Shown one piece after another: positions 33,084 to 41,016 of a stretch of DNA of 55,984 nt. The stretch spans positions 1 through 55,984 of the forward strand of contig CAIXBB010000011.1 in assembly GCA_903917565.1 (NCBI GenBank). The letters are read 5' to 3'. The notes under the pieces were generated by a model. It saw nothing but the letters and a program-made list of their open reading frames with translations. It did no database searches and had not been told where the DNA came from. Numbering within the stretch: the first letter of the stretch is position 1; each line of letters opens with the position of its first letter. The DNA comes from an uncultured cyanobacterium. GTDB lineage: Bacteria; Cyanobacteriota; Cyanobacteriia; PCC-6307; Cyanobiaceae. Both the position numbers and the translations under genes were made by a program.

Positions 33084-33214
33084 GGCCTCTGTCGGCGGCA
33101 GGCAGGGAGCCTCGCAGAGCGCCCGTGGAGTCCCTCCAGTGCCTGCCGGCCAGGCCCCATCCACGCCTGCAGCGCCGGCCCTGCCACCATCCAGTCTGCA
33201 GCTGTTCGACAGCG

Positions 33215-34774
33215 TTGAATCCCAGCGATCCCGCAAGGGCAGACGTGGTGGTGGTGGGCGCCGGCATCGCCGGGCTCACGGCGGCGGCGCTGCTGGCGAA
33301 GCAGGGACTCCAGGTGGAGCTGCTTGAAGCCCACCGCCAGAGCGGCGGCTGTGCCGGCACCTTCCGGCGTGGGCCCTACGTGTTCGACGTGGGGGCCACC
33401 CAGGTGGCAGGGCTGGAGAAGGGGGACGGCACCGCCGCCGGCATCCACGCGCGGCTGTTCCGCCATCTGGGGGTGGCGCCGCCGTTGGCTGTGCCACTGG
33501 ATCCCGGCTGTGTGGTGGATCTCGGCGATGGCACGGCGCCGGTGTCGATCTGGCGCGACCCGGAGCGCTGGCGGCAGGAACGGTTGCGGCAGTTCCCCGG
33601 CAGTGAACGGTTCTGGGCCCTCTGCGACGCCCTGCACCGGGCCAACTGGACCTTCGCCTCGCGGGATCCGGTGCTGCCGCCCCGCACCTGGTGGGATCTG
33701 GGCCAACTGCTGGGGGCGGTGGGTCCAGGGACGCTGGCCAGCGCTCTGCTCACCACCGCCACGGTGGCCGACCTGCTGCGGCTCAGTGGCTGCGCCGCCG
33801 ACGGGCGGCTGCGGCTCTTTCTGGACCTGCAGCTGAAGCTTTACTCCCAGGAGCCAGCCGATCGCACGGCCGCGCTCTACGGGGCCACGGTGCTGGCGAT
33901 GGTGCAGGAGCCGCTGGGCCTCTGGCACCTGGAGGGCTCGATGCAGACCCTCAGCGACGGCCTCGAGCAGGCCCTGGCGCAGCAGGGCGGTCGTCTGCGG
34001 CTGCGGCATCGCGTCGAACGGCTGCAGCCGCCCGCGCAGCCGAACGACCTCTGGCGGATCACGGGTCGGAGCCATACGGCCCGGCCGGGGGAACCGGGGT
34101 CGCCGGAGGGGGATTTCAACCTGAGGGCCGCCGAGGTGGTGGTCACCCTGCCCCCCCAGACCCTGCCGGCCCTGCTGGGGGACTCCCTGCCAACGGGCTA
34201 CCGCCGCCGGCTCGAGAACCTGCACGAACCCAGCGGGGCCCTGGTGTTCTACGGGGCGGTGGAGCGGAACAGGCTGCCGAGGGGGTGCCCCAGCCATCTG
34301 CAACTGGAGGCCCAGGAACCGGGCTCATTGTTCGTCTCGGTGAGCCAGGACGGGGATGGCCGCGCCCCCGCGGGTAAGGCCACGGTGATCGCCAGCGTGT
34401 TCACACCGGCCCGCCCCTGGTTCGGGGGGGAGGAGGCCGCCTATCAGGCCCGCAAGCAGCAGGCGATGGCCGCGATCCAGGCCGGCCTGGAGCAACTGCT
34501 CGGGGTGGGGCCCGCCGACTGGCTGCATGGGGAGCTGGCCACCCCCCGGGGCTTCGCCGGCTGGACAGGACGGCCCTGGGGCTATGTGGGCGGCCTGGGC
34601 CAGCACCCCAGACGCTTCGGGCCCTTCGGCCTGGCCAGCCGCACCCCCCTGGCGGGCCTGTGGTTGTGCGGGGATGCCATCCACCCCGGCGAGGGCACGG
34701 CGGGGGTGAGCCTCTCGGCCCTGATGGCCTGCCGCCAGCTGCTGGCCCAAAGGGGGGTGGAGCTGCGGCCCTGA
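33215..34774 (+). CDS. crtD: CrtD-type carotenoid C-3',4' desaturase
   Basis: This protein of about 519 residues is an FAD-dependent enzyme of the phytoene desaturase/isomerase family. It has the dinucleotide fold [21 protein letters not shown] with [19 protein letters not shown], and the C-terminal FAD motif [20 protein letters not shown]. The adjacent fructosamine kinase and the sequence style fit the cyanobacterial CrtD group, which acts on the psi end of myxol-type carotenoids; CrtISO is the main alternative. The start is probably TTG 33215, just before the FAD fold; upstream residues look unrelated. Confidence 0.8.
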
Positions 34775-34790: not shown

Positions 34791-35726
34791 TCAGTTGACG
34801 CTGACGCGCACCACGCGGCCACCGAGACGCTGCACCCGCTGCAGGGCTTCATTCATGCGGTTGTAGGGCACTCGCATCACGTAGGCACCGCTGCGCACCA
34901 CCGCGTTGTTCACCAGCCCGGTGGCTGTGATGGTGGCCACCCGGCCACTGGATTCGCTGGTGCTGCGCACGCCGGCCGAGACCACCAGGGCCTCCGCCCG
35001 GTGGCCGCGGGAGGGATCGCTGGGCTGGCCGTTCCGGGGGACAGGGCCATCCACGCTGGCACCCCCCTGGCCCAGGTTGGCCTGGAAGAAGGATTCACCG
35101 CTGAAACGGGGACGCCTGAGCGACACCGTCACCGCCCGATCCTGGTGCAGGGCCCTGCCGAGCTTGAAGCGGGTGCCGGCGCTGTCACCCTTGACCGAGG
35201 CGGCCGCTCCACCGGCCAGCTGCATCAGCCAGGAAAACTGCTGACCCTGGTGGCCGGCGGAATAGTCCCAGCCGTGGAGATAGGGCACCACGTCGGAGCC
35301 GAAGCGCTCCTGATACTCGGGGCTGTCGATGTAGGAGTCGATCTCGGCGTCGTAGCCCTGCTCCTGCAGGATCGTGAAGTGGTGCAGCATCTCAGCCTTG
35401 TTGTGGGGAGCCCGGCCCAGGAGATGCTTGTGGTTGAGCTCAATGAAGCGGTAGGGATTGCAGGATTCGAAGAAGCGAGCGCGATAGAGACCGCTTCTGG
35501 CGAGGGTGCGCACGAATTCCTGCACGGTGAGATAGCCGTTGCGGAAGAGGGATTCGGCACCGGCAAGGCGCTCGTTCTGCATTACATACTGCTGGCCCAA
35601 TACCTGCTGATACACCAGCCGGATGATGCCATCACGATCCTGCGGGGAGGCTTTCGACCAATTCTCCTTGTTGCGATCATCCGCGAAGCGTTCGATGCCA
35701 AGGGAAGGGGCTTGGACCAGGGCCAT
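34791..35726 (-). CDS. Phycobilisome rod linker polypeptide (CpcC/CpeC type)
   Basis: The protein has 311 residues. The N-terminal PBS linker domain (about 15-160) has IIRLVYQQVLGQQYVM, ERLAGAESLFRNGYLTVQEFVR, RFIELNHKHLLGRAPHNKAE and AEIDSYIDSPEYQERFG. A spacer leads to a C-terminal CpcD-like domain ending YVMRVPYNRMNEALQRVQ. Such linkers join phycocyanin or phycoerythrin hexamers in the rod. CpcC and CpeC are hard to tell apart by eye. ATG 35726 starts the conserved N-terminus. It is convergent with the crtD-like gene and about 34 kb from cpcA-cpcE-cpcF. Confidence 0.92.
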   Translation of the reverse strand: MALVQAPSLGIERFADDRNKENWSKASPQDRDGIIRLVYQQVLGQQYVMQNERLAGAESLFRNGYLTVQEFVRTLARSGLYRARFFESCNPYRFIELNHKHLLGRAPHNKAEMLHHFTILQEQGYDAEIDSYIDSPEYQERFGSDVVPYLHGWDYSAGHQGQQFSWLMQLAGGAAASVKGDSAGTRFKLGRALHQDRAVTVSLRRPRFSGESFFQANLGQGGASVDGPVPRNGQPSDPSRGHRAEALVVSAGVRSTSESSGRVATITATGLVNNAVVRSGAYVMRVPYNRMNEALQRVQRLGGRVVRVSVN

Positions 35727-36544
35727 GGTGGAAACAATGCAAAGGGCGGAGAGAGGAGCATCGCCTTGGGCAAGGGAGGTGGCGGCCTCTGGCAGAAACC
35801 GGTGCAGGCGCACGGCAGAACAGAGTTCCCCGGATGAGCTGCCCACCGACGATGTCAAGCCGCGATTCTTACCGGATTCGGAGCGAAGAAACCAGGATCG
35901 TTACAGCGGTATGCGCCTGGAGAAAGATCCATACATTCCTTCACCACGAAGGATTGAGAAAAGACAAGAAAAAGCTCAGGAGGTCAGGCGCCCGGGGCGT
36001 CGCCGAGGCGATTCCGCTGACGCCGGGGAACCTTGGACACCGGCACGGTTCAGGCTGCTGCTCGCAAGGGTGGGCAGCTGGAGGGAGGGAGCGGGGCTCG
36101 CCGCGTCCTGGAAGAGGCTTTCCCAGACGGTCTCAAGGGCGGTCAGCTCGTCGGCCGTTGACCACCCCACTTCGGCGGAACCTTCCACGGCAGGCCCGCC
36201 ACGGCGGACCGGCGCGAAAGGCCGTGGGAACCGGGCTGGGACTGACGCCTGGGCTGATGAAGCTCAACCAAGTCTTCTGGCCTTAATTCTGAGACCCTAC
36301 TTGTACGGCATCTCGCTGCCCAGTCTGGGGGAAGGCAACACAATCTGACAGAAAGAAAGTGTAAAAACAATGCCGCCATGGACGTATCGGATCCTGGGGC
36401 GAAGTTCCAGCGCAAGCGAGAGCCAGGACGTGGATGCTGGGCATCAACAACACCCTGACAAGTTTGGACTCCTGAAGAGGATCGAGCCTGTCGATCTTCG
36501 TTGGTCCTGAGGGACGGAGAGTGCCCACACACCCACTCCAGGGC
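35727..36544. other. Gene-poor region upstream of the rod linker
   Basis: About 800 nt separate the linker start from the end of the next minus-strand gene. Reading frames cross it in several directions but none looks like a known protein. It has AT-richer patches near 35930-35975 and 36330-36375 that may hold the linker promoter. A 70-codon frame on the minus strand (35976-36188, GTG start) is the only one with plausible composition. No terminator with a T-tract and no tRNA is visible. Confidence 0.5.
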
Positions 36545-36826
36545 CTACTCGTCGCTGGGCAGCAGCACCAGGGTATGCAGCCGGTCGGTGCCGAGATCAT
36601 GGGTGAGGATCCACACCTGCAGGCCCTGGCCGAGATCAAAGACGCTGCGCAGGGAACCCTGCTGGCGGTAGGCGGCGATGGTGTTGGCGCGGGCATCACG
36701 GGCATCCACCACACCCCAGTCACCGCGGCGGTGGCGGGCCACCAGACGCTGCAGGGTTTCGCCATCCACCCACTCGCGCACCTCGGGACTCACATCCACC
36801 GGGCCGATGGCGAGGCGGGCTGCCAT
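36545..36826 (-). CDS. Small protein of a family often found on mobile elements
   Basis: The protein has 93 residues. The pattern HRRGDWGVVDARDARANTIA, then LRSVFDLGQGLQVWILT, then TLVLLPSDE, matches a widespread short family seen on plasmids and phages in which GDWG, an N and a final VLLP-[DE]-[DE] are conserved. Its biochemical function is unknown. It stands alone between the gene-poor region and the divergent msrA. Confidence 0.7.
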   Translation of the reverse strand: MAARLAIGPVDVSPEVREWVDGETLQRLVARHRRGDWGVVDARDARANTIAAYRQQGSLRSVFDLGQGLQVWILTHDLGTDRLHTLVLLPSDE

Positions 36827-36958: not shown

Positions 36959-37621
36959 GTGCGACTGCCGCCACGCCTCACCACAACCGCCGCCCTCGGG
37001 GCCCTGGCCGCCAGCCTGCTGGCGCTGCCACTGGTCGCGAGGGGCCTTCCGCCCAGCCTTGGATCCTCCAGCGCCGTGGCGGCCGGTCCCCGTGCCACGG
37101 CGGTGCTGGCCGGGGGTTGTTTCTGGGGCATGGAAGCGGTGTTCGAACACGTGTTGGGCGTCACCGAGGTGGTGAGCGGATACACCGGCGGCAGCCCGGC
37201 CACCGCCACTTACGACCGGGTGGGCGGCGGTGACACCGGCCACGCCGAAGCGATCCGCATCACCTACGACCCAGCCGTGGTGAGCTACGGCCAGCTGCTG
37301 AAGGTGTTCTTCACCGTCGCCCACAATCCCACCGAGCTGAACCGCCAGGGCCCGGACGTGGGCTCCCAGTACCGCTCGGCGATCTTCCCCACCGACCCGG
37401 AGCAGCGCCGGGTGGCTGCGGCCACCATTTCCCAGCTGAATCGCTCCGGCGCGTTTCCGCGACCGATCGCCACCACGGTGGAGGCCTGGCATGGCTTCAC
37501 CCCCGCCGAGACCTACCACCAGGACTTCGTCGCCCGCCATCCGGCCGATCCCTACGTCGTGTTCCATGACCAGCCGAAGGTGGCCCGGTTGAAGGCCCAG
37601 TTTCCGGGGCTGTCCCGGTAG
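36959..37621 (+). CDS. msrA: Peptide methionine-S-sulfoxide reductase MsrA, probably exported
   Basis: This enzyme reduces methionine-S-sulfoxide in oxidised proteins. The 220 residues include the catalytic AGGCFWGMEAVFEHV (Cys54), YTGGSPATATYDRV, GHAEAIRITYDP, and QYRSAIFPTDPEQ. The first 40 residues form a signal peptide (RLTTTAALGALAASLLALP), so the enzyme probably works in the periplasm. No second cysteine is present, so recycling must use an outside thiol. The start is GTG 36959. Confidence 0.92.
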   Translation: MRLPPRLTTTAALGALAASLLALPLVARGLPPSLGSSSAVAAGPRATAVLAGGCFWGMEAVFEHVLGVTEVVSGYTGGSPATATYDRVGGGDTGHAEAIRITYDPAVVSYGQLLKVFFTVAHNPTELNRQGPDVGSQYRSAIFPTDPEQRRVAAATISQLNRSGAFPRPIATTVEAWHGFTPAETYHQDFVARHPADPYVVFHDQPKVARLKAQFPGLSR

Positions 37622-37632
37622 GGAGCATGGCC

Positions 37633-38265
37633 TCAGCGCAGATGGTCGAGGGCCCCGCGGCCGTGCAGATCGGCCAGGGCGTCGTAGCCGCCGATCGGCT
37701 CGCCATCGATGAACACCTGGGGCATGGAGCCGCGGCCGCTGCGGGCGGCGATCTCCTGACGCACGGCCTCGTCATCAGCCAGTTGCACCACGTGGGGGAT
37801 GCCGAGGGTGCGCAGCATGCGCAGGGCCCGGGCCGAAAAGGGGCAGCCGCTGAGCACGGCGATCTCCACCCGCGGCTGGGCGGGGCTGGCAGGGACCGCG
37901 GGCCTGGCCCCGACGGCCGCAGGCCCCTGATGAGCGCCGGTGGGCAGGAAGCCCACCAGCAGGTCGGCGCCCCTGAGCACCAGGCTGCCGTGCTCGAGGT
38001 GGCCGCCCCACACCTGGCACTCGCCATCGGAGAGGCTCAGGTGCAGGTGCACCCCCTGGGGCGCCACGGTGCCCTGCAGGGTGATGATCTCCAGATGGCC
38101 CTGCAGCACGGTGGGCTCGACCTGGCCCGGGCACTGGAAGGCCGCCTGGGAGAGGTCGCCCACCACCCCCAGCACGAACCCGGAGGCGCCGACTTCGTTC
38201 CCCAGCTGCTCGAGGCGGGCGCGCAGATCACTGCCCGGGCCGAGATGCAGCGGCAGGGGACGCAT
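37633..38265 (-). CDS. PPC (DUF296) domain fused to a glutaredoxin
   Basis: The protein has about 210 residues and two domains. Residues 1-110 are a PPC/DUF296 domain: MRPLPLHLGPGSDLR, GFVLGVVGDLSQAAF, LEIITLQGTVAPQGVHLHLS, and GGHLEHGSLVLRGADL. After a Pro/Ala linker, residues 130-210 are a glutaredoxin with active site GCPFSARALRML, cis-Pro loop GSMPQVFIDGEPIGGYDAL. The active site is CPFS, of the monothiol kind. ATG 38265 was chosen; TTG 38292 is possible. It follows two genes of an mscS operon. Confidence 0.85.
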   Translation of the reverse strand: MRPLPLHLGPGSDLRARLEQLGNEVGASGFVLGVVGDLSQAAFQCPGQVEPTVLQGHLEIITLQGTVAPQGVHLHLSLSDGECQVWGGHLEHGSLVLRGADLLVGFLPTGAHQGPAAVGARPAVPASPAQPRVEIAVLSGCPFSARALRMLRTLGIPHVVQLADDEAVRQEIAARSGRGSMPQVFIDGEPIGGYDALADLHGRGALDHLR

Positions 38266-38288: not shown

Positions 38289-38855
38289 TCAAGGTAAGTC
38301 CCGGCCCGCCGGCGCCAGCGGCCCGAACCGGCAGCGCAGCAGCGCCAGGGCCTCATCGGGCAGACCCAGGAACCGATCCAGCCACCGATCGCCACTGGGG
38401 GCGATGGTGGCCACCCCCACCAGCAGCGCCAGGCCATCGCCATCGAGGGGCTGGCCAGTGGCCTGGTGGCGGCGACCCTGCACGGGGCCGGTGCTGAGCG
38501 TGGTGTCGACGATCAGATCGGGAGCCCGGTAGAGAGCGCCGATGGCGAAGCGGAAGCGAGCGTTGAACCTCAGGGCCATCGCGCCGGTGGAAGCATCCAT
38601 GCTGCCGTCGAGCTGCTGGGGTTGGATCGTGATCGCCAGCCCGGGGGGCAGCGGCAGGCCGAGGAAACGGGTGGTGCGCCAGTTGAGCGGCGGGATGCGC
38701 AAGGCGACGGGATCGAACCGGAGCGCCTGTGAACCGTTGCCGTCCTCGGTGAGCCGTCCCAGGCCCCCGCCCCCGCGGGCGTCGTAGCGAAAGCGGGGAT
38801 AGGCGCCGATCACCAGGCCGCAGCCCGCCAGGGTGTGGAGAACGCCGTCAGCCAT
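38289..38855 (-). CDS. Conserved hypothetical protein
   Basis: This protein of 188 residues is from no family I can name. It is rich in beta-type segments: HTLAGCGLVIGAYPRFRYDA, LRFDPVALRIPPLNWR, ITIQPQQLDGSMDASTGAMA and FRFAIGALYRAPDLIVDTTL. No signal peptide or membrane helix is evident. Its ATG lies inside the end of mscS (8-nt overlap), and the PPC-glutaredoxin gene follows, so the three are probably one operon. Confidence 0.65.
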   Translation of the reverse strand: MADGVLHTLAGCGLVIGAYPRFRYDARGGGGLGRLTEDGNGSQALRFDPVALRIPPLNWRTTRFLGLPLPPGLAITIQPQQLDGSMDASTGAMALRFNARFRFAIGALYRAPDLIVDTTLSTGPVQGRRHQATGQPLDGDGLALLVGVATIAPSGDRWLDRFLGLPDEALALLRCRFGPLAPAGRDLP

Positions 38856-41016
38856 CGATCTGGACCTCCGCCTGGGTGGGATAGGGGATCTCGATCCCTT
38901 CGGCGGCGAACAGGGCCAGCAAGGCCCGGTTGAGGCGGGCCACCTCATCCTTGAACGCCGCGTAGGTGGGCTGGGAGGAGCGGTAGTCGTAGGTGAAGTC
39001 GTAACTGAAGTCGTTGATGGCCATCAGGCGACAGGCGCGGAAGGCCGCCAGGGGTTCGCGATCGAACAGACCGGCGATCAGTGCCGGGATGCGTTGCAGC
39101 TGCTCCGGACTGGTGTTGTAGGCCACGCCGATCACCATGCGGGAACGGATCACCTGATCGAGGAGCTGCCGCAAACGCAGCAGGACTGATTCCCGGAGGC
39201 TGAGGTAATCGGTCCAGTTGGGGGCCTGAATCTGCCCGCAGCAGCGCAGGAGCAACTCTTCATCGTGCGCCACCTGGTCGATGAACACCTGGGCGTTCGT
39301 CAATCCAGGCAGCTCATCAGCCAGAAAGGTGCGGCTGTAATGCAACAGATCCTGTAACTGATCCGGCGTGAGAGTCCCAGGAAGGGGGAGATGCAACTCA
39401 AAGACGTGCAACACCAGATCCGGCGACCGATCCGATCGCAGGGAGTAGTTGACGATCGTCTCCTCATCGACGATCGAATTGGGAATGGTGATGCGGCTCT
39501 CGTGGGTCTGCAGCTCCAGGGAACGCAGGCCGATCTTGGTGACATAGCCCAGATTCGTGCCGATGCGGCAGAACTCACCCACCCGCAGTGGGCGGTCGGT
39601 CTGGATGGACAAGCCGGCGAACAGATTGCCCAGCAGCTTTGAGGCGCCCAGGCCGATGGCCAGGCCGGGCACGGCGGAAAAGGCCAGCACGGTGGAGGAC
39701 GGCAAGCCCAGCAGGATCAGCAGCCGGTACATCAGGGAAACTGCGAAGATGGCCCCCAGCACCCGGCAGACGGGCATCACCAGATTGCTGACGCGGCTCA
39801 GCTGCAGGGGGTTGCGCCGTCCGCGCAGAATCGTGATCCACTCCGCCAGGCTGCGGCCGAGGGCCTCCATCAGGAAGAAGCTGAACAACCCCGCCCAGCA
39901 GAAGTAGAGCGTGTAGAGCAGAAACATCAGCACCTGCAGGGGCAGGCCGGTGACGTTGACGTAGTGATCGAGCAGCAGTTCCACCAGACGAATCAAGGGA
40001 AGGGCAATCCCCGCCAGCAGCACCCGGTGCCAGGCGATGTTGTCGACTTGCCAGATCTGCATGGGTGTGAGTGGCTTACTGGCAGCCCGTTCTGTCATCC
40101 GATAGGTGCCAAGCAGGGCCAGCACCAACCGAAACTGAATGACGGCGAAGACCGCCAGCGCCAGCAACCCCAACACAATCTGAAACAGGGTCTGGTCCCA
40201 TAGGTGGGACTCCAGCACGTTGCGGCGCAAACCCTGGGGAATGTTGAGGTACCACTTGGGCGGCAGGATGTAGCCGGGCCTGAGGCTGAAGGCGTCATAG
40301 ATCGCTGGCGTCAGCAACGGGGAGGCGCTGGCGGAGGACGCCACCTGATCCTTGATCTCTTCATAGAGGCTGGGGATCTGAGCCACCGTGGCGGCCGAAA
40401 AGATGTAGCCGTGATCACGGCCCTCGTGGGAACCTTCATCGGTCAGGGTCAGGGAAGTGCCTGGGATGGTCCAGCTGGCGCTGGGGTGCACCCGTGCCTC
40501 GTTCAGTACCTTCATCCCAGCCACATCAGGAAGTTCGAAAGGCTTGCGGCTGTGGGTGAAGACATAATCGAGAATCACCTTGAGTTTGAGGGCATATTCT
40601 TCGGCGAAATCCCCCCGGATGCTCTGGGGGATCTCCGACACATCCAGGGCCTTCACCGCTTCCTTGAAATAGCTGTTGATCAACTCCTGCTTCTGCTTCA
40701 CCTCGCTCGACCAGAACAGTCCAGGGGTCTCCGGGGCCATGGCCTCGAGGCGCGCGGTGTCGCGACTCACCTGGGCCATCACCACGTAGAAATTGAGCAG
40801 GGTGGCTCGCGGACTGTCCCCCACCACCTGGTTGAGGGGGGCATCGGTCCATTGCTGCTTCAGGTCCAGCAGCTGGCCATGGAACGGTTGGCTCTCCAGG
40901 GGCACAAAGGCTTCCCTGGCCACGGCGGGGGGGGCGGCCCCCTGGCCGGCGAGGCCCATCAGTGGAAGCAGCCAGGCGATCAGGAACGCCAGCAGCAGAC
41001 GGATCAGACGGGGCAC
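38848..41016 (-). CDS. MscS-family mechanosensitive ion channel
   Basis: The protein has 722 residues. A signal-type N-terminus (RLLLAFLIAWLLPLMGLAG) and a large helical periplasmic part (to about residue 270) precede five or more membrane helices and the MscS core. The pore helix region is VPGLAIGLGASKLLGNLFAG, followed by the beta domain VGEFCRIGTNLGYVTKIGLR and ITIPNSIVDEETIVNY. It would release osmolytes on hypo-osmotic shock or sense tension. It leads an operon with two soluble proteins downstream. Confidence 0.92.
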   Translation of the reverse strand: MPRLIRLLLAFLIAWLLPLMGLAGQGAAPPAVAREAFVPLESQPFHGQLLDLKQQWTDAPLNQVVGDSPRATLLNFYVVMAQVSRDTARLEAMAPETPGLFWSSEVKQKQELINSYFKEAVKALDVSEIPQSIRGDFAEEYALKLKVILDYVFTHSRKPFELPDVAGMKVLNEARVHPSASWTIPGTSLTLTDEGSHEGRDHGYIFSAATVAQIPSLYEEIKDQVASSASASPLLTPAIYDAFSLRPGYILPPKWYLNIPQGLRRNVLESHLWDQTLFQIVLGLLALAVFAVIQFRLVLALLGTYRMTERAASKPLTPMQIWQVDNIAWHRVLLAGIALPLIRLVELLLDHYVNVTGLPLQVLMFLLYTLYFCWAGLFSFFLMEALGRSLAEWITILRGRRNPLQLSRVSNLVMPVCRVLGAIFAVSLMYRLLILLGLPSSTVLAFSAVPGLAIGLGASKLLGNLFAGLSIQTDRPLRVGEFCRIGTNLGYVTKIGLRSLELQTHESRITIPNSIVDEETIVNYSLRSDRSPDLVLHVFELHLPLPGTLTPDQLQDLLHYSRTFLADELPGLTNAQVFIDQVAHDEELLLRCCGQIQAPNWTDYLSLRESVLLRLRQLLDQVIRSRMVIGVAYNTSPEQLQRIPALIAGLFDREPLAAFRACRLMAINDFSYDFTYDYRSSQPTYAAFKDEVARLNRALLALFAAEGIEIPYPTQAEVQIDG

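Follow-up and report, generated by a model that had tools for sequence, protein, structure and literature searches.

The window analysed here is a 55,984-nucleotide stretch of DNA from an uncultured cyanobacterium of the family Cyanobiaceae. On its minus strand lies a gene (37633..38265, with ATG at 38265 and the stop codon at 37633) encoding a protein of 210 aa, in which a PPC/PCC (DUF296) domain is followed by a glutaredoxin (Grx) domain. The PPC domain covers residues 2–98 (37972..38262, minus strand) and matches Pfam PF03479 with an E-value of 1.5e-18 and 67.6 bits against a cut-off of 25; the Grx domain, residues 133–190 (37696..37869, minus strand), matches PF00462 with an E-value of 1.6e-13 and 51 bits (cut-off 22.9). 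Starting at a TTG at 38292 would lengthen the protein by nine residues, but in the alignment nearly all homologues begin at the ATG position. An AlphaFold2 model of the fusion, built from 49 aligned homologues, reached a mean pLDDT of 89.8 and predicts two folds. By VIA, its PPC half matches the structure 2p6y with Z 20.4 and an rmsd of 1.4 over 110 residues, and its Grx half resembles E. coli Grx3 (3grx) with Z 14.1 and an rmsd of 1.6 over 80 residues. The overall pTM of 0.54 is what is expected of two domains joined by a flexible tether. Residues 111–128 (37882..37935, minus strand) have pLDDT values below 50 and form a predicted disordered linker, which varies strongly in length and sequence among the 49 fusions, with both flanking domains conserved.

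Upstream of the fusion, at a distance of 23 nt, is a gene for a 188-aa protein (orf188; 38289..38855, minus strand), and this is overlapped by 8 bp by a gene for an MscS-like channel of 722 aa (38848..41016, minus strand; PF00924, E 1.7e-12). The minus-strand order is thus channel, orf188, fusion, so that the channel is co-directional with the fusion and orf188 stands between them. On the other side, a gene for an MsrA-type methionine sulfoxide reductase (36959..37621, plus strand; PF01625, E 2.9e-55) converges on the fusion and ends 11 nt from its stop. Of 49 loci, some with short flanks, 15 have MscS next to the fusion, all of them in the window's clade; among the loci compared, MsrA adjoins the fusion in this clade only. 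A functional link to MscS or MsrA as a general rule was rejected, given that the adjacency is limited to the window's clade among these loci. The clustering of neighbours was blurred by antisense ORFs, which are a feature of GC-rich DNA. Several other genes nearby were recorded. A 93-aa ORF at 36545-36826 has no Pfam match, is 91–99% identical across the loci of the window's clade that contain it and exceeds most neighbouring genes in conservation; also beside the locus are genes for a phycobilisome linker-type protein (34791-35858; PBS_linker_poly and CpcD) and for a protein of the FAD amine-oxidase family (33125-34774). In a 1.7 Mb genome of the same family (L096:6546-10021), genes up to 5 kb downstream of the fusion encode an NAD(P)H-binding protein, an HhH-GPD protein for base-excision repair, an ABC ATPase, a ferritin and a Crp-type regulator.

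The presence of PPC and glutaredoxin in one protein, proposed in a preliminary description of this DNA, is borne out by Pfam, by the fold matches and by recurrence in relatives. The same description proposed co-transcription with a mechanosensitive channel, which is a weak reading, since only loci of the window's clade showed the channel next to the fusion. That description had named a missed stop or frameshift joining two genes as the alternative. This is ruled out by 86 distinct fusions, 49 homologues including the window's own and 37 more, each of which holds both domains inside a single open frame; recurrence of the fusion across about 197 of 251 genomes of the family likewise argues against a missed stop. 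The first set came from 76 loci, which gave 49 distinct proteins after three contig-edge fragments (L030, L045 and L050) were left out, and its other 48 members share 38–91% identity with the window protein. The second, fetched as a test set, consisted of 40 further loci, mostly from other genera, three of which (L275, L295 and L303) were already in use as L046, L049 and L047, leaving 37. Motif tallies given below on 89 rows include these three duplicates.

The preliminary description had also proposed a search for the same fusion across cyanobacteria. We surveyed 99 genomes including the window's own, 61 belonging to its family and 38 to other families within the class. Of the 61 family genomes, 46 have the fusion, which a contig end interrupts in G011, and 15 lack it; none of the 38 other-family genomes had it, and the PPC and Grx matches listed there are separate. 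In a wider family sample, 206 of 251 genomes match a model of the fusion at E ≤ 1e-20, and about 197 fusions are among the matches listed, the difference being nine matches between 4.9e-22 and 3.0e-30 that look like stand-alone PPC. Most sampled genera of the family are represented: 49 of 59 have a match at E ≤ 1e-20, a count in which one genus or more has only stand-alone PPC. The named contigs bearing the fusion are titled Synechococcus, Cyanobium, Aphanothece and Prochlorococcus, together with one cyanobacterium MAG. A contig search limited to close relatives returned 17 loci from genomes like those that bear the fusion, of which two hold the halves of a single gene cut at contig edges; the other 30 loci, mainly from Sphingomonas, match the Grx part only.

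No Grx match was found in the same ORF as PPC in any of 53 non-fusion PPC ORFs, which were taken from the window genome, from its genus and from the class-wide survey. Near one such PPC, at L135, there is a weak Grx match (E 6e-4), but in another frame. On viral contigs, 78 loci gave matches with a best E-value of 7e-10, none of which spans the whole fusion. Their starts fall within the Grx part or close to it; the exceptions are two weak ones, L259 (E 2e-5, from residue 65) and L266 (E 1e-4, from residue 52). In a FastTree phylogeny of PPC domains, those of the fusions group together on one branch, apart from the non-fusions, with a split support of 1.0, which makes a single fusion event likely.

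The active-site motif of the Grx domain is C141-P-F-S144 (37834..37845, minus strand), and C141 is one of exactly three cysteines in the window protein, the others being C45 and C83. Over the 89 rows, the motif reads CPWS in 45 (42 of 86 without duplicates), CPFS in 23, CPYS in 13, CPWC in 6 and CPYC in 2, so the active cysteine is followed by proline in every row. C-x-x-S is found in 78 of the 86 distinct fusions, and serine at this fourth position fits a monothiol glutathione mechanism; C-x-x-C occurs in the other 8, which a strict monothiol reading leaves unexplained. Among non-CGFS monothiol glutaredoxins, yeast ScGrx7 (CPYS) is described as active with glutathione and in standard assays (PMC5382279). 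The cis-proline Pro182 and the G192-G193 pair are invariant in the 49 fusions. The best profile scores are 54.9 bits for PRK10638 and 54.0 for TIGR02181, the Glutaredoxin 3 equivalog, both under their cut-offs (curated at 90 for TIGR02181), and the CGFS Grx4/Grx5 model TIGR00365 gives 36.4 bits against a cut-off of 117.1, the motif here being CPFS and not CGFS. In fold and sequence the domain thus falls with class I (CPYC-class) glutaredoxins, lacking in the window their dithiol C-x-x-C. The term monothiol-type, used in the preliminary description, holds for the motif but not for the family, as class I Grx3 models outscore the CGFS model.

With a class I-like profile, the Fe–S role borrowed from CGFS glutaredoxins does not follow. 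An iron–sulfur switch, in which Grx domains and glutathione would bridge a [2Fe-2S] cluster, possibly together with PPC cysteines, is improbable in our judgement. The C-x-x-S motif is compatible with it, and yeast Grx6, a non-CGFS monothiol glutaredoxin, is stated to bind a [2Fe-2S] cluster in the available portion of its report (PMC5053157); the Grx domain here, however, is outside the CGFS family and has proline after the active cysteine in all 89 rows. The ferritin and Crp-type genes lie 3–5 kb from the fusion in L096, which would suit an iron-related role, yet these neighbours are several genes away and come from one checked locus, with a Crp-type gene also in L048.

The PPC domain carries the other two cysteines. 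Cys45 (38131..38133, minus strand) is present in 49/49 and 37/37 fusions, and Cys83 (38017..38019, minus strand) is likewise invariant in all 86. By contrast, cysteine occurs at neither position in 51 distinct non-fusion cyanobacterial PPC domains, where Gly occupies position 83 in 51/51 and position 45 holds F, L, Y or W. His73, His75 and His89, which form an HxH...H metal-type site (37999..38049, minus strand), are invariant in the 86 fusions and in the 51 non-fusions alike. The invariant columns of the first 49 fusions include C45, C83, C141, the three histidines, Pro182 and G192-G193, and the 37 fresh fusions, fetched as a test of this invariance, all have the three cysteines and three histidines. 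As the fusions probably stem from one event, the invariance of the cysteines partly reflects common descent. The contrast with the non-fusions gives a Fisher p-value of 7e-39 with related sequences treated as independent; this value is inflated by their relatedness, and the evidence is the contrast itself. The non-fusion set, 51 distinct domains from 53 loci, is uneven and all cyanobacterial, consisting of the best Pfam scorers, which come from 30 of the 48 other-family genomes that gave a match, 20 loci from the same genus and the window genome's paralogue.

The surroundings of the cysteines differ as well. R44 is found in 51/51 non-fusion PPC domains and in 1/86 of the fusion domains, 80 of which have Q; A46 is likewise constant in the non-fusions and replaced by P in 85/86 fusions. 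T98 and T99 are each present in 51/51 non-fusions, whereas none of the 86 fusions has T at either position, with mostly K/R and G instead. Position 91 is E in 86/86 fusions and variable in non-fusion PPC domains. The window protein itself carries Q44, R98 and G99. The R44/T98-T99 feature was found in this comparison and lies outside the definition of PF03479, and its absence from the fusions, as aligned, is a subgroup difference that leaves them within the PPC domain family. Read from the alignment, the fused PPC domain keeps the metal-type site, loses a surface that is invariant in this non-fusion sample and gains two cysteines. A related fold match, 2h6l, is titled 'Metal-containing Protein AF0104', and PPC proteins are trimers.

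PPC is attached to a different partner in some other cyanobacteria. At L113:2397-4337, in another cyanobacterial family, it stands at the C-terminus of a GlmU-like protein of 647 aa (NTP transferase, hexapeptide repeats and PCC by Pfam), and five further loci (L114, L120, L130, L137 and L143) have frames of 617–648 aa with PPC at a similar place, Pfam having been run on L113 only. GlmU and PPC proteins are both trimers, so that their symmetries match.

In the AlphaFold2 model, C45 follows directly after the strand 29–44 and C83 lies two residues ahead of the strand 85–90, so both are outside strands. With a simple antiparallel register, the two would probably sit together at one end of the sheet. 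Either cysteine pairing with a metal or a structural role for C45 and C83 is conceivable. This bears on a possible, if rather doubtful, reading of the protein, in which the Grx acts on outside clients, the PPC core only oligomerises and positions it, and C45 and C83 form a structural disulfide or provide extra metal ligands. The recognisable glutaredoxin features are kept, the 18-residue linker, predicted to be disordered, would give the Grx free reach, and structural roles are common at places outside strands, such as those of the two cysteines. From mere scaffolding, on the other hand, the fusion specificity of C45 and C83 would be unexpected. The glutaredoxin complement of the genomes points both ways. 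In the window genome (search at E ≤ 0.01), the other Grx domains well above the cut-off are a CGFS protein and one reading ...SSDCILAKG without CPxC/S, and no stand-alone CPxC glutaredoxin is among the stronger matches; the fusion might therefore serve as its class I Grx. The missing dithiol Grx may instead be an assembly gap, the 46-contig assembly having a completeness of 99.94%. Of 15 other genomes searched, 14 encode a CPFC or CPYC glutaredoxin that stands alone, so that the fusion is usually accompanied by a general class I Grx.

The most recurrent neighbour is orf188. Its product is predicted to be a beta-barrel (model pLDDT 90.5), for which no Pfam or NCBIfam match was found at E ≤ 1 and no PDB match by Foldseek of the model at E ≤ 0.001; VIA returned generic barrels, with a best Z of 10.7 and no convincing PDB relative. 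It adjoins the fusion in 32 distinct loci and in three arrangements: upstream on the same strand in 16 loci (the window's clade), co-directional and downstream in 10, and divergent in 6, with 115–178 nt between the starts and two of these loci titled Prochlorococcus. Such repeated re-association of the two genes argues for a functional link. The gene was detected in 47 of the 99 genomes, all from the window's family, and it is adjacent to the fusion in 30 of the 40 genomes having both. Across the 61 family genomes, 40 have both genes, 6 the fusion only, 7 orf188 only (thus 7 of the 15 without the fusion) and 8 neither, giving a Fisher p of 0.003 with phylogeny ignored, and this co-occurrence is weak evidence. 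Two orf188 genes (in G027 and G054) contain an in-frame stop. Two orf188 cysteines are highly conserved, C12 in 62/62 aligned rows and C175 in 60/62, many rows being the same gene twice. The idea that they are clients tied to the fusion is not supported, since orf188 retains both C12 and C175 in four genomes without the fusion (L190, L191, L193 and L194).

The preliminary description had suggested a redox or Fe–S dependent switch; the redox idea has become more concrete through the fusion-specific PPC cysteines, and the Fe–S part, borrowed from CGFS glutaredoxins, is weak. We propose, tentatively and with somewhat less than even confidence, that the protein is a thiol/metal switch, in which a metal-binding PPC core carries a cysteine pair served by a tethered, glutathione-dependent monothiol Grx. 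The PPC domain would form the oligomeric core, presumably a trimer like other PPC proteins, with its putative three-histidine metal site kept. The R44/T98-T99 surface of other cyanobacterial PPCs would have been exchanged for a new one bearing C45 and C83. On its flexible linker, the Grx would act as a glutathione-dependent monothiol thiol-transferase whose C141 takes or gives glutathione, and C141 could then set C45 and C83, if these are reactive, to a glutathionylated, disulfide or reduced state on the same subunit or an adjacent one, depending on how GSH and GSSG are balanced. This state would alter what the PPC core binds, and the partner could be the orf188 product.

A fuller form of this thiol/metal switch would be a self-contained redox/metal sensor, in which each PPC arm's own Grx adds and removes glutathione, or makes and breaks a disulfide, at a purpose-made cysteine pair and GSH/GSSG thereby sets binding; we consider this conceivable but not probable. 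If it is true, the biochemical input of this PPC protein would be defined, and picocyanobacteria would possess a widespread sensor of glutathione that may work through orf188. As the cysteines are seen only with Grx attached, a built-in redox switch is directly testable, and such a test could give the PPC domain a function. Should the switch reading be wrong, the annotation remains, namely a fused class I-like monothiol glutaredoxin that is not CGFS.

The DUF296-Grx architecture has been known since 2009. In the excerpted text of Alves et al. 2009 (PMC2679010), DUF296-GRX is listed as bacteria-specific and of the CPYC class, with a suggested role in DNA binding and gene regulation. This publication is what favours a redox-controlled DNA-binding regulator, together with the plant AHL proteins, whose PPC-containing members act on DNA according to the portion of PMC9946822 available. 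The same portion, however, assigns DNA binding in plant AHL to the AT-hook and protein interactions to the PPC domain, and Pfam at E ≤ 1 lists no DNA-binding domain in the window protein; to such a regulator we give very little credence. The excerpts of Alves et al. 2009 hold no taxon or cysteine analysis for DUF296-GRX. In the literature searched, which was mainly open-access, we saw no experimental study of the fusion, and the sources seen there, partly as excerpts, showed neither an input nor an output in biochemical terms for any prokaryotic PPC domain. DUF296, PPC domain and PCC domain are absent from the main text of a 2026 review of cyanobacterial redox signalling (PMC13421787). Nor did the open-access literature searched describe the two cysteines specific to the fusions, the missing R44/TT surface or orf188 as a recurrent neighbour, an absence that is weak evidence. 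From the sequence comparison, C45/C83 specific to the fusions, the loss of the R44/TT surface and the association with orf188 are what is new here.

Compared with the DUF296-GRX proteins as excerpted from Alves et al. 2009 (PMC2679010), the fusion has the same two domains in the same order and is bacterial. It joins their CPYC class by similarity and not by a CxxC motif, most fusions here being CPxS and not CPxC. The PPC half shares its fold with the stand-alone PPC/PCC structures 2p6y, 2hx0/2nmu, 2h6l and 2dt4 (Z 13.7–20.4), but the aligned sequences of 2p6y and 2hx0/2nmu, unlike the fusions, lack cysteine at both position 45 and position 83. These stand-alone structures, with chains of 131–143 residues, presumably lack a Grx domain. 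The Grx half resembles class I glutaredoxins (E. coli Grx3 3grx/1fov and Synechocystis GrxA 3qmx) in fold, with Z about 14, and in its cis-proline and GG motif; it differs from them in being fused, in having CPFS in place of a dithiol motif and in reaching 54 of the 90 bits set as the Grx3 equivalog cut-off. We know of no PPC domain in yeast Grx6 or Grx7. In the excerpted text of PMC2679010, these two carry the motifs CSYS (Grx6) and CPYS (Grx7), which makes them, like the fusion, non-CGFS glutaredoxins with a single active-site cysteine. Unlike the fusion, they are eukaryotic proteins of the early secretory pathway, according to the title of another paper.
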